Assembly (NCBI RefSeq): GCF_000801955.1
Contig: NZ_JSZO01000003.1
Span: 62,001-126,000, forward strand
Direction of reading: 5' to 3'
Source of the DNA: Ralstonia sp. A12
Lineage (GTDB): Bacteria > Pseudomonadota > Gammaproteobacteria > Burkholderiales > Burkholderiaceae
DNA: 64,000 nt
Shown here: in pieces, positions 32,205-35,390 of the stretch
Layout: each line of letters opens with the position of its first letter
Position numbering within the stretch: the stretch's first letter is position 1
The notes under the pieces: model-generated
What the model was told of the DNA's origin: nothing
Database searches by the model: none
The model's input: the letters and a program-made list of their open reading frames with translations, nothing else
Program-made: the position numbers and the translations under genes

Positions 32205-32690
32205 TCAGGCCGAGGTTGCCTTGTAGATGTTCGGCCGGTGCAGTTGCATGAAGCCGATCCCCTCAGGCACATCGGTAAAGCCGTGCTTGCGATAGAGCCA
32301 GTCCGCGCCCGTGGTGACCAGCACCGTGCGGCGCAGGCTTTGCAGCTCCGGATGCTCGCGCAGGAAATCCATCAGCGCATGCGAGACGCCTTTGCCGCGC
32401 CATTCGGGCAACACGAACACGTCGCACAGATAGCCAAACGTCGCGCGATCGGTGATGAAGCGCGCGAAGCCCACGAGGTCTTCGCGCACGCCGTCGTCGT
32501 TCTGGCGATAGGCCGCGAAGCACAGCGAGTTGGCGATCGATCGGTCGAACACCTCACGCGGCAGGCCGCGAGCCCAATGCGTTTCTCGCGAGAGGAAGTT
32601 GTAGATCTGGTCCAGCGGAAGCCACGCAGGATCGTCAGATAAAACGATCCCCGTGGCCGGAACAACGTGCAGGACACGCGTTAGGGCCAT
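32205..32690 (-). CDS. GNAT-family N-acetyltransferase
   Basis: A 161-residue acetyltransferase. The acetyl-CoA site is in VFVLPEWRGKGVSHALMDFL, and the C-terminus has the WLYRKHGFTDVPEG turn typical of the fold. The substrate is not readable from sequence. GAGG precedes the ATG. It lies 71 bases after argD on the same strand, with a GC hairpin between, so it may be expressed with argD; that does not prove a role in arginine metabolism. A small-molecule or protein acetylation role is equally possible. Confidence 0.85.
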   Translation of the reverse strand: MALTRVLHVVPATGIVLSDDPAWLPLDQIYNFLSRETHWARGLPREVFDRSIANSLCFAAYRQNDDGVREDLVGFARFITDRATFGYLCDVFVLPEWRGKGVSHALMDFLREHPELQSLRRTVLVTTGADWLYRKHGFTDVPEGIGFMQLHRPNIYKATSA

Positions 32691-32761: not shown

Positions 32762-33949
32762 TTAGGCGTGTGCCTTGAGCAGCGTGCGGAGCATGTCGAT
32801 CATCGTGTCGATCTCTTCGGTCGTCACGTTCAGTGCGGGCATGAAGCGCAGGATGCTCGGGCGCGGGGCGTTCAGCAGCAGGCCCGTTGGGTTCATCTCG
32901 CGTGCGGCTTCGACCAGTTGGCCGCCGATGTCCTTGCCGAGCAGCAGGGCGCGCAGCAGGCCATCACCACGCTCGCCGGCCAGACCGAACTCTTCCGACA
33001 GTTGCAGCAATTGCTTGCGCAGGTAGGCGCCGCGTTCCTGCACGCCGGCCAGGAAGCCCGGGGCCAGCAATTGCTCGATCACCGAGCAGCCGACCGCCGT
33101 CATCAGCGGGTTGCCGTTATAGGTGCCGCCCTGGTCGCCGGCTTCGAAGCTGGCGACTTCATCCGTGCACAGGAGGGCCGACAGCGGCACGCCGCCGCCG
33201 ATGCCCTTGCCCAGCGTCATGATGTCCGGCTCGATGTTCGAGAGCTGGTAGGCGAAGAGGGTGCCGCAGCGGCCGCAACCGGCTTGCACTTCATCGACGA
33301 TCAGCAGGATCTTGTGCTTCTTGGTCAGCGCGCGCAGTTGCTGCATGAACTCCGGCGTGGCCGGCAGCACGCCGCCTTCGCCTTGCACCGGCTCGAGCAT
33401 CACGCCGACGGTCTCATCGGTGATCAGCGCTTCCACCGAGGCGATGTCGTTCAGGATCGCCTTCGGGAAGCCCGGCACCTGCGGCGCGAAGATGGTGTCC
33501 CAGCCGGCTTTGCCCGATGCGCTCATGGTGGCGAGCGTGCGGCCGTGGAAGCTGTGGTCGAAGGTGATGATCTGGAACGCGCCGTTCTTGTGCTTCTTGC
33601 CCCACTTGCGGGCGAGCTTGATGGCGCCTTCGTTGGCCTCGGCGCCGCTGTTGGCGAAGAACACCTTGTCGAAGCAGCTGTGCGCGGTCAGCAGGCCGGC
33701 CAGTTTCGCCATCGGCTCGTTGTAGAAGGCCGGGCTCGGGTTGATCAGCTTCTTCGCTTGCGCGTTGAGCGCTTCGATCATGCCGTCGTTGGAGTGGCCA
33801 AGGCAGTTGACGGCCCAGCCTTGCACGAAGTCCAGGTATCGCTTGCCGTTGTGATCCGTCAGCCAGGAGCCCTTGCCTTCGGTGAAGACGATTTCGGGCC
33901 GGTTGGTGATGTACATCAGGGACTGGACGGGGTAGTCAGCAAACGCCAT
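32762..33949 (-). CDS. argD: Acetylornithine aminotransferase
   Basis: PLP enzyme of arginine synthesis, converting N-acetylglutamate semialdehyde to N-acetylornithine; many ArgD proteins also act in lysine synthesis. The 395-residue class III aminotransferase has [44 protein letters not shown] and the PLP-binding Lys248 in [19 protein letters not shown] precedes the ATG. A good promoter lies about 200 bases upstream, and between them are an arginine-codon-rich short frame and a terminator, suggesting attenuation. A related class III transaminase is possible but the motifs favour ArgD. Confidence 0.93.
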
Positions 33950-34006
33950 GGCAAAGCTCCAGAAAAAGGCGGCAGGAAGATGAAAAAGCGAACAAATGCG
34001 AGTTGG

Positions 34007-34043
34007 AAAAAGACAAAGGCCACGGGGGTTGCCCCGTGGCCTT
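34007..34043 (-). terminator. Intrinsic terminator inside the argD leader (candidate attenuator)
   Basis: On the minus strand AAGGCCACGGGG and CCCCGTGGCCTT form a perfect 12-bp stem with a four-base loop, followed by TGTCTTTTT. It lies between the argD promoter and argD, so argD transcripts must read through it. It could also end transcripts from the reductase gene upstream. Confidence 0.85.
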
Positions 34044-34076
34044 GTGATCGTCGAATCCTGTGAACCCGATATGCAA

Positions 34077-34148
34077 TCAGCAGACAGCCGCGCGGCTTCC
34101 CGGAGGGAGCAACGTACGGCGGCGTCGGAGGTGCAGGGCTTGGTTCAT
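34077..34148 (-). CDS. Candidate arginine-rich leader peptide of argD
   Basis: A 23-codon frame starting ATG at 34148 and ending TGA at 34077. Residues 8-11 are four consecutive arginines (CGA CGC CGC CGT) and residue 19 is a fifth. There is no Shine-Dalgarno; the ATG lies eight bases after the -10 of the promoter, so the transcript could begin at the A of the ATG. A terminator hairpin starts 34 bases after the stop. This matches the layout of leader peptides that sense charged tRNA. Four Arg codons in a row can arise by chance in GC-rich DNA, so translation is unproven. Confidence 0.5.
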
Positions 34149-34156
34149 AAGGCGCA

Positions 34157-34185
34157 AGAATAAGACGGATGCCAAGTCAAGTCAA
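34157..34185 (-). promoter_or_regulatory. Sigma-70 promoter of the argD leader
   Basis: TTGACT (34180-34185) and TATTCT (34157-34162) on the minus strand are exactly 17 bases apart. The first matches the -35 consensus at five of six positions. Transcription would start near 34148-34150. Confidence 0.65.
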
Positions 34186-34233
34186 AACGAAATTTCGACC
34201 CGGTTTGGATTTGTGCAACGGTTGGCCCGAGGG

Positions 34234-35286
34234 TCAACCCGCAGCTGGGTGCAGGTCCGCCTCCGAGGTGAACGAGTCGGCGAAGAACGCGTCCGGGTGC
34301 ATCTGGCACTGGGCGGCAAAGTCCGCGCGGGCTGAGTTGATCACTACCGGCGCGCCACAAGCGTAGACCTCATGGTTCGACAGATCGGGGTGGTCGGCCA
34401 TCACGGCTTGATGGACGAAGCCGGTGCGGCCGGCCCAGGCGTCTTCGGGCAGGGCGTTGGAGACGACCGGCACGTAGGTGAAGCCTGGAATCGTGCGCGC
34501 CCATTCTTCCGCCTTGGCGTGCATGTACAGGTCTTGCGGGCGGCGGCCGCCCCAGTACAGCGTCATCGGGCGCTTGCTGCCGATGAACTGCGCATGCTCG
34601 ACGATGGCCTTGATGGGCGCGAAACCGGTGCCCGAGGCCAGCAGGATGATCGGCTTGTCGGATTCTTCACGCAGGAAGAAGCTGCCGAGCGGCCCTTCAA
34701 AGCGCAGGATGTCGCGCTCCTTCATGGCCGGCGCGCCTTCCTTGGCGCCGAAGACGTAATCGGTAAAGGCACCGCCCGGCATGTGGCGGATGTGCAGCTC
34801 GATCGGCCCCTCTTCGTGCGGCGGGTTGGCGATCGAGTAGCTGCGGCGCTTGCCGTCGCGGAGGATGAATTCCACGTACTGCCCGGCGAGAAATTGCATA
34901 CGCTCGGTGGCAGGCAGTTGCAGCTTGACGATGGAGACGTCCGGCGCGGCTTTCTCCAGCGAGGCCACGCGGCACGGGATCTTCTTGATGGGCACATCGC
35001 CCGCGCCTTGCACTTCGCGCACTTCAATGGTGACGTCAGTCGCGGGCGTGGCGCAGCAGAACAGTGCGCGGCCTTCCGTGGCTTCCTGGGCGGAGAGCGC
35101 GTTGGCCGAGTGGTTGCCCTGGACGATGGAGCCTTCACGCACGTGGCCCTTGCACGAGCCACATGCACCGTTCTTGCAGCCATACGGCAGGCCGATGCCC
35201 TGGCGCAGCGCTGCTGCAAGGATGGTCTCGCCGTCTTCGGCCTGGAACTGGCGGCCGCTGGGCAGCACGTTGATCTGGTAAGCCAT
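34234..35286 (-). CDS. Ferredoxin-type reductase (2Fe-2S, FAD, NAD), CDP-6-deoxy-delta-3,4-glucoseen reductase-like
   Basis: A 350-residue electron-transfer protein. The N-terminal plant-type [2Fe-2S] ferredoxin domain has cysteines in GCKNGACGSCKG and FCC. The FAD domain has RSYSIANPP and the NAD domain LLASGTGFAPIKAI, ending YACGAPVVINSA. Proteins with this layout are often named glucoseen reductases after the sugar enzyme, but most serve as reductases for oxygenases. No oxygenase or deoxysugar gene is nearby, so the partner is unknown. The start is MAYQINVLPSGRQF; it is divergent from the SDR gene. Confidence 0.88.
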   Translation of the reverse strand: MAYQINVLPSGRQFQAEDGETILAAALRQGIGLPYGCKNGACGSCKGHVREGSIVQGNHSANALSAQEATEGRALFCCATPATDVTIEVREVQGAGDVPIKKIPCRVASLEKAAPDVSIVKLQLPATERMQFLAGQYVEFILRDGKRRSYSIANPPHEEGPIELHIRHMPGGAFTDYVFGAKEGAPAMKERDILRFEGPLGSFFLREESDKPIILLASGTGFAPIKAIVEHAQFIGSKRPMTLYWGGRRPQDLYMHAKAEEWARTIPGFTYVPVVSNALPEDAWAGRTGFVHQAVMADHPDLSNHEVYACGAPVVINSARADFAAQCQMHPDAFFADSFTSEADLHPAAG

Positions 35287-35390
35287 ACTACAATCCGAAT
35301 ATGTTGAAAAGAGTGTCTGGTCGCCCGTCCGGTCGCACAAACGCGGCACATCCAATCATGACCCCGGCAAGAGCCCGGCCACCGAAATCC

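Follow-up and report, generated by a model that had tools for sequence, protein, structure and literature searches.

The classical amino-acid attenuators control the trp, his, leu, thr and ilv operons of proteobacteria, and to our knowledge arginine is not among the amino acids usually named as having one. In fungi the arginine attenuator peptide is encoded by an arginine-responsive upstream frame that arrests the ribosome at high arginine and acts on translation. The leader of argD described here is likewise proposed to be an arginine-responsive frame, whereas the fungal system is eukaryotic and translational. With the classical attenuators it has in common a product-rich leader peptide, a terminator and a competing (here predicted) antiterminator, a stop codon that is often near region 2, and a codon run that pairs (here again by prediction) with region 2 when the RNA is untranslated. 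It is unlike them in the amino acid, in the control of mostly a single gene, argD, and in a leader frame that is predicted to be leaderless.

The mechanism of ribosome-mediated attenuation is summarised in the text of PMC7298713, where the leader ATG of Sinorhizobium meliloti trpL is given as the 5′ end of the RNA and the terminated RNA, rnTrpL, as a known sRNA. The argD leader would resemble trpL in both respects, but encodes arginine instead of tryptophan, and its 5′ end is placed by promoter spacing, whereas in S. meliloti the 5′ end and the action in trans have been shown (PMC7298713). The text of PMC6386406 describes a second relative, orf34 of the Salmonella speF leader, in which low arginine is sensed by a pair of adjacent Arg codons. 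These codons are AGG-CGG, orf34 has a Shine-Dalgarno sequence, Rho and RNase G take part, no intrinsic terminator was found, and the gene controlled encodes ornithine decarboxylase. The initial annotation of the present locus knew of no arginine version of attenuation; sensing through Arg codons has a precedent in speF, but not, in that text, as terminator/antiterminator control of an arginine-biosynthesis gene.

The argD leader locus

The window analysed was a stretch of 64,000 nucleotides from Ralstonia sp. A12, and the elements of the argD leader locus within it are given in Table 1. The initial annotation had listed a TTGACT-17-TATTCT promoter, an ATG 8 nt after the -10 element, a 23-codon Arg frame, a 12-bp terminator, a TGGAG site and argD, all of which were present. 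The 23-residue leader peptide (translation of 34148-34077) carries arginines at positions 8-11 and 19, the terminator tail has the sequence TGTCTTTTTC, and the product of argD is an enzyme of the arginine pathway (NF002985), matching the amino acid proposed to be sensed. A consensus scan of positions 33500-34600 gave one promoter-like site compared to a shuffle mean of 0.1. No promoter-like site lay between the hairpin and argD, so that the scan gave no sign of a transcription start downstream of the hairpin, which the initial annotation had named as evidence against its reading. The same interval contained two terminator-like sites compared to a shuffle mean of 1.0, the terminator alone being not above chance.

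Table 1. Positions of the elements of the argD leader locus in the window.
Element	Position	Strand	Basis or remark
Upstream gene, ferredoxin/flavin-reductase-like	34234-35355	-	top NCBIfam match BenC at 201 bits, under the cut-off
-35 element TTGACT	34180..34185	-	consensus scan and sequence
-10 element TATTCT	34157..34162	-	17-nt spacer from -35; ATG 8 nt downstream
RF02884 BcKCsr7 match, model 1-157	34015..34163	-	32.8 bits, E 4.1e-5, gathering score 59
Leader frame, predicted leaderless	34077..34148	-	ATG 34148; stop UGA 34079-34077; conceptual translation
Arg run CGA-CGC-CGC-CGT, region 1, proposed sensing codons	34116..34127	-	sequence, codon statistics
Small hairpin, between Arg run and antiterminator	34098..34108	-	folding
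Antiterminator 5′ strand, region 2, CCGCGCGGCU	34086..34095	-	folding; predicted to pair with the Arg-run region when untranslated
Terminator 5′ arm = antiterminator 3′ strand, region 3, GGCCACGGGG	34032..34041	-	folding
Intrinsic terminator stem-loop, 12 pairs	34016..34043	-	U-rich tail to about 34006
argD ribosome-binding site TGGAG	33957..33961	-	sequence
argD, acetylornithine transaminase	32762..33949	-	ATG 33949; NF002985, 783 bits

The spacing of the promoter and the leader frame was measured in 50 non-redundant leaders, picked from 144 at a similarity below 0.93. The distance between the -10 element and the ATG was 6 bases in 12 leaders, 7 in 36, and 8 and 9 in one each; in one of the 50 (L149) the -10 element matches the consensus at 3 of 6 positions only. 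Because the -10 hexamer sits 6-9 nt from the ATG there is no room for a Shine-Dalgarno sequence, and Shine-Dalgarno-like bases were seen within the 20 nt before the ATG in one leader of the 50. The suggestion of the initial annotation that the frame is apparently leaderless was thereby supported, in six families, and the spacing would place the start of transcription on the leader ATG or no more than a few bases away. This suggests that an attenuator can retain leaderless initiation across an order.

Conservation and distribution of the leader

A total of 96 loci were compared, consisting of 80 named argD loci (the best 80 among the matches listed, from Ralstonia, Cupriavidus and Paraburkholderia, with a few from records under the title Burkholderia or Burkholderiaceae) and 16 genomes from the window's genus, some genomes being in both sets. 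A short ATG frame directly after the -10 element, adjacent Arg codons and a terminator were found in 96 of 96. The occurrence of this arrangement by chance was examined with a rule that required a leaderless short ATG frame with two adjacent arginines, followed downstream by an intrinsic terminator. The rule was satisfied in 80/80 upstream regions of the named argD loci, again the best 80 among the matches listed, compared to 0/800 dinucleotide shuffles of argD upstream regions, in which the frame alone appeared 14 times. Other overlapping 462-nt segments of the same loci satisfied it in 18 of 3132 cases, and the 15 of these that were inspected all fell at two overlapping positions of related loci. 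The arrangement of promoter, frame and terminator is not a product of chance.

A sample of 80 genomes was drawn from the family, of which 59 contained argD at E <= 1e-150. The leader was identified by the rule in 42 of these 59 genomes and in 12 of 19 genera, and no genus with several such genomes was mixed for its presence. The Arg codons are therefore conserved together with the terminator, in these genomes and in the 96 loci, a point on which the initial annotation had made its reading depend. The remaining 17 argD-bearing genomes lacked the leader by the rule, as did seven genera; 14 of the 17 (12 plus a further two, all except L181, L194 and L196) were read by eye. In several genera without the leader argD appeared by eye to lie within a few tens of bases of an apparent upstream reductase gene, which suggests that the attenuator may have been lost when argD joined the reductase gene. 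At L178 and L197, which have no attenuator, argD sits closely behind an apparent reductase gene. Within the genus of genome G306, five members of which were also in the family sample, the leader was matched at the DNA level in 65 of 65 genomes.

In a wider sample of 150 genomes from the order, 22 contained argD at E <= 1e-130. Inspection by eye revealed a leaderless Arg frame with a terminator in 12 of the 22, belonging to families f1, f3, f5, f8, f24 and f35, and no such frame and terminator in the other 10. The leader peptides of different families have little in common beyond the Arg run, and the terminator stems also differ by family (GCCACGG, GCCACAGG, GCCGCGC, GGCCGCAT, GGCCACGAG and GGGCCACGG). 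A class-wide search matched argD in 6/185 genomes at E <= 1e-110, and the five relatives outside the window's genome, which were also outside the order, had no such leader. A covariance model of the leader, R1, gave hits in 60 of 250 order genomes at E <= 0.01. At the R1 loci L098-L129 (n = 32, including two weak hits in the window's own genome) argD adjoins six, one of them the window's own, and R1 loci without an adjoining argD were excluded from the leader counts. The next R1 match in the window's own genome had an E value of only 0.29.

Codon usage of the Arg run

A single tRNA, which has inosine at its wobble position, decodes the Arg codons CGA, CGC and CGU. Across the 50 leaders the Arg runs, which vary in length from 2 to 4 codons, contained 53 CGA, 85 CGC and 32 CGT codons, and no CGG, AGA or AGG; in the leader frames outside the run these last three were present 6, 3 and 8 times. 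CGA occurred in every run (50/50, and 144/144 before thinning) and was the first codon of the run in 48 of 50 leaders, whereas in 80 argD genes, the best 80 among the matches listed, it made up 49 of 1381 Arg codons (3.5%). The presence of CGA in every run, although the codon is rare, makes these leaders a natural test case for how codons are chosen in attenuators. According to the text of PMC4046918, CGA-containing Arg pairs in a Salmonella his-leader reporter gave high de-attenuation, with CGU and CGC read faster than CGA. In the Salmonella speF leader, as described in the text of PMC6386406, arginine control was conferred by rare and frequent Arg codons alike, and CGA may thus be dispensable for sensing. 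The conservation of CGA may have a reason in RNA structure.

Predicted RNA structures

The window RNA was folded from roughly the position at which a ribosome stalled in the Arg run would release it, minus the 3′ arm of the terminator. Positions 34095-34086 then paired with 34041-34032 on the 5′ arm of the terminator, and when the 3′ arm was included the terminator won. The initial annotation had found no convincing antiterminator by eye and had considered Rho or RNA release as well; as an antiterminator is predicted, neither need be invoked. RNAalifold on a MAFFT alignment gave the terminator and the small hairpin only and no antiterminator. The antiterminator was examined by folding because its strand is offset by one alignment column between genera.

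For the 50 leaders the 5′ arm of the terminator was predicted to be sequestered with a mean probability of 0.64 when the ribosome was placed on the Arg run, compared to 0.46 in shuffles (Wilcoxon p 2e-9), and with a mean probability of 0.40 when the ribosome was on the stop codon (p 3e-7). The test statistics treat the leaders as unrelated, while they share kinship, which makes these p values and those below optimistic. In the untranslated RNA the mean sequestration was 0.28, and region 2 paired with the Arg-run region instead, with a mean of 0.55 and a value above 0.5 in 33 of 50 leaders. Averaged over the leaders, these three predicted RNA states are those of a classical attenuator. Among individual leaders, pairing of the arm in the stalled state was not above 0.5 in 10 of 50, and sequestration with the ribosome on the stop codon was lower than in the stalled state in 38, higher in 10 and equal in 2. 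The stalled-state pairing of L002, which is closely related to the leader in the window and of the same type, was matched by 16% of its shuffles, and in L144 and L147 the arm was also sequestered in the untranslated RNA (0.93 and 0.99). A ribosome on the stop codon would cover at least half of region 2 in 29/48 leaders, all of it in L002 but less than half in, for example, L166.

The fit of each antiterminator strand to its own terminator arm was compared with its fit to the arms of other families. Initial folds used 23 representatives, and the two final arm-swap tests drew 15 and 12 of the 50 leaders. The mean was -10.8 kcal/mol for own arms against -8.9 for foreign arms in 15 leaders (permutation p 0.00055), and -11.2 against -8.8 kcal/mol outside f1 in 12 leaders (p 0.0001); an earlier swap with loosely trimmed arms gave -10.7 against -9.4 in 17 leaders (p 0.0073). 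The cross-family fit was driven by f24 and f5, while in f1, f3, f8 and f35 the own pairing was mostly no better than the foreign one. A mutually exclusive antiterminator that uses the 5′ arm of the terminator is predicted, with support that is uneven between leaders.

In L144, of family f24, the antiterminator strand nearly copies the loop and 3′ arm of the terminator, TTCGTGCGGCC being present in both, as if this switch had arisen by a short duplication.

Relationship to RF02884

The RNA family RF02884 is named BcKCsr7, described as 'Burkholderia sRNA 7' and typed as 'Gene; sRNA'. Its match to the window runs over the full length of the model, from the -10 element to the U tract, and indicates a homologous RNA although the score is below the gathering score (Table 1). 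Of 13 other loci, six matched at 59.9-164.7 bits and the remaining seven gave no RF02884 match at E <= 0.01. The family differs from the leader described here in being filed as an sRNA gene, in a structure without the antiterminator and in its 5′ boundary. In our reading the structure line of RF02884 has the Arg run paired with region 2, the terminator formed and the antiterminator absent, and the consensus structure is the terminated state. This boundary falls within the -10 element, 14-15 nt before the leader ATG, and was probably set too far upstream. By homology, the terminated RNA of the argD leader belongs to this known sRNA family, and an Rfam 'sRNA' of unknown function would become the terminated half of a switch. 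No Rfam family, including T-box and riboswitch families, reached its gathering score in the window apart from one tRNA. Searches with three leader peptides matched nothing in Pfam or NCBIfam at E <= 1, which includes DUF2618 (PF10940), the family named for speF orf34 in PMC6386406.

In a 2024 review (PMC10987360), the main text and table of which are used here, the expression of Bc_KC_sr1 to sr7 is given as experimentally confirmed. Bc_KC_sr7, named in Ghosh et al. 2017 (via PMC10987360), is listed there as identical to nc5U30 and RIT34, as an expressed RNA of 147 nt on chromosome 1 of B. cenocepacia J2315 (2,967,641-2,967,787), and as changing in level under some conditions. For comparison with this span of 147 nt, a count in L166 gave 147 nt from the ATG to where the stem ends and 153 nt to where the U tract ends. 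Neither argD nor acetylornithine occurs in the main text of PMC10987360. A 2017 study reported 82 'short 5′UTRs' with processing or attenuation (PMC5688073); argD and arginine do not occur in its main text, and the argD 5′UTR is likely to be listed in its tables, as the name nc5U points that way. No description of an arginine attenuator at argD was found in the part of the open-licence literature that was searched, supplementary tables excepted.

Proposed mechanism and alternative explanations

The argD leader is very probably a ribosome-mediated transcription attenuator on a leaderless mRNA, which senses charged arginyl-tRNA; of this reading, the arginine response and the precise 5′ end are the parts deduced from sequence. 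Transcription would begin at or near the ATG, as the spacing implies, and the ribosome would read the frame as a leaderless mRNA. At low levels of charged tRNA-Arg it would wait on the CGA-CGN run and block the pairing of the Arg run with region 2, leaving region 2 to bind the 5′ arm of the terminator, so that no terminator forms and argD is transcribed. With ample arginine the ribosome would run on to the stop codon, which is at region 2 or close to it, the arm would be free, the terminator would form and transcription would end after about 140 nt. In the absence of translation the Arg run would pair with region 2 and termination would again be favoured. The interpretation of the initial annotation, an arginine attenuator of argD, is supported, and the leader is best read as a classical amino-acid attenuator, apparently leaderless and distinct from the Arg-codon leader of Salmonella speF. 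It has four defining features of that kind: a short frame with a run of Arg codons, an intrinsic terminator ahead of argD, a competing antiterminator (as a prediction) and a controlled gene that serves arginine synthesis. In Ralstonia, Burkholderia and many relatives argD is most likely switched on only when arginine is short.

The classification of RF02884 as an sRNA gene and the condition-dependent changes of Bc_KC_sr7 in the table of PMC10987360 would be expected of a trans-acting sRNA with its own terminator, with the Arg frame incidental and argD expressed by read-through or separately. This explanation is nevertheless very unlikely, as in every argD locus examined for it the leader, where present, directly precedes argD, the Arg run persists where the terminator stem and the tail of the peptide vary, and the consensus scan offered argD no promoter-like site of its own after the hairpin. 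An additional role of the leader RNA in trans, by analogy to rnTrpL, may exist alongside attenuation.

Sensing by the nascent peptide is known from SpeFL, where a free metabolite triggers arrest of the ribosome. An Arg-rich argD leader peptide might similarly respond to free arginine or ornithine instead of to codon starvation, and Salmonella orf34, with its Arg codons, gives a precedent (text of PMC6386406). Arrest at high arginine would however induce argD, which is the wrong sign, the families differ in the residues beyond the Arg run, the length of the run varies, and the preserved codon identity, with CGA present and CGG, AGA and AGG absent, argues for decoding; peptide sensing is accordingly judged highly improbable. 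It is scarcely credible that the hairpin is a plain end-of-gene terminator of the reductase-like gene and that the Arg frame arose by accident in G+C-rich sequence. That gene does run in the same direction as argD and ends 190 nt before the hairpin, but a promoter-like site sits between the two, several genera without the leader have argD close behind an apparent reductase gene (by eye), and the contrast between the argD loci (the best 80 among the matches listed) and their shuffles argues against an accident.

ArgR and other arginine loci

A search for the arginine repressor ArgR (PF01316) gave nothing in the genome of the window, and 0 of 150 order genomes had a match over the cut-off, with one weak match among them, compared to 8 of 14 control genomes. 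An arginine attenuator conserved over six families of an order without a recognised arginine repressor is a possible means of argD control. In the window's genome, no leader of the argD kind was found at the argF locus, at a second carbamoyltransferase locus or at two argC-like loci (below the family cut-off). More speculatively, and with less than even confidence, the leaderless attenuator could gate arginine biosynthesis in this order, which has no recognisable ArgR, through the slowest codon, CGA, and its tRNA-Arg(ICG, inosine-34). Each run has CGA, any CGC or CGU in it would be decoded by this tRNA too, and codons of other Arg tRNAs are absent. The switch would then report both the charging and the A-to-I editing of that tRNA, and the terminated BcKCsr7 RNA would also serve as a tiny mRNA/sRNA acting in trans.

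An acetyltransferase-like frame (32205-32690, minus strand; weak ArsN2 hit, 27 bits) lies downstream of argD in the window. None was seen in Cupriavidus (L015), and a similar-looking frame is present 3′ of argD in Paraburkholderia xenovorans (L056). The frame in the window is possibly a second gene under the attenuator.
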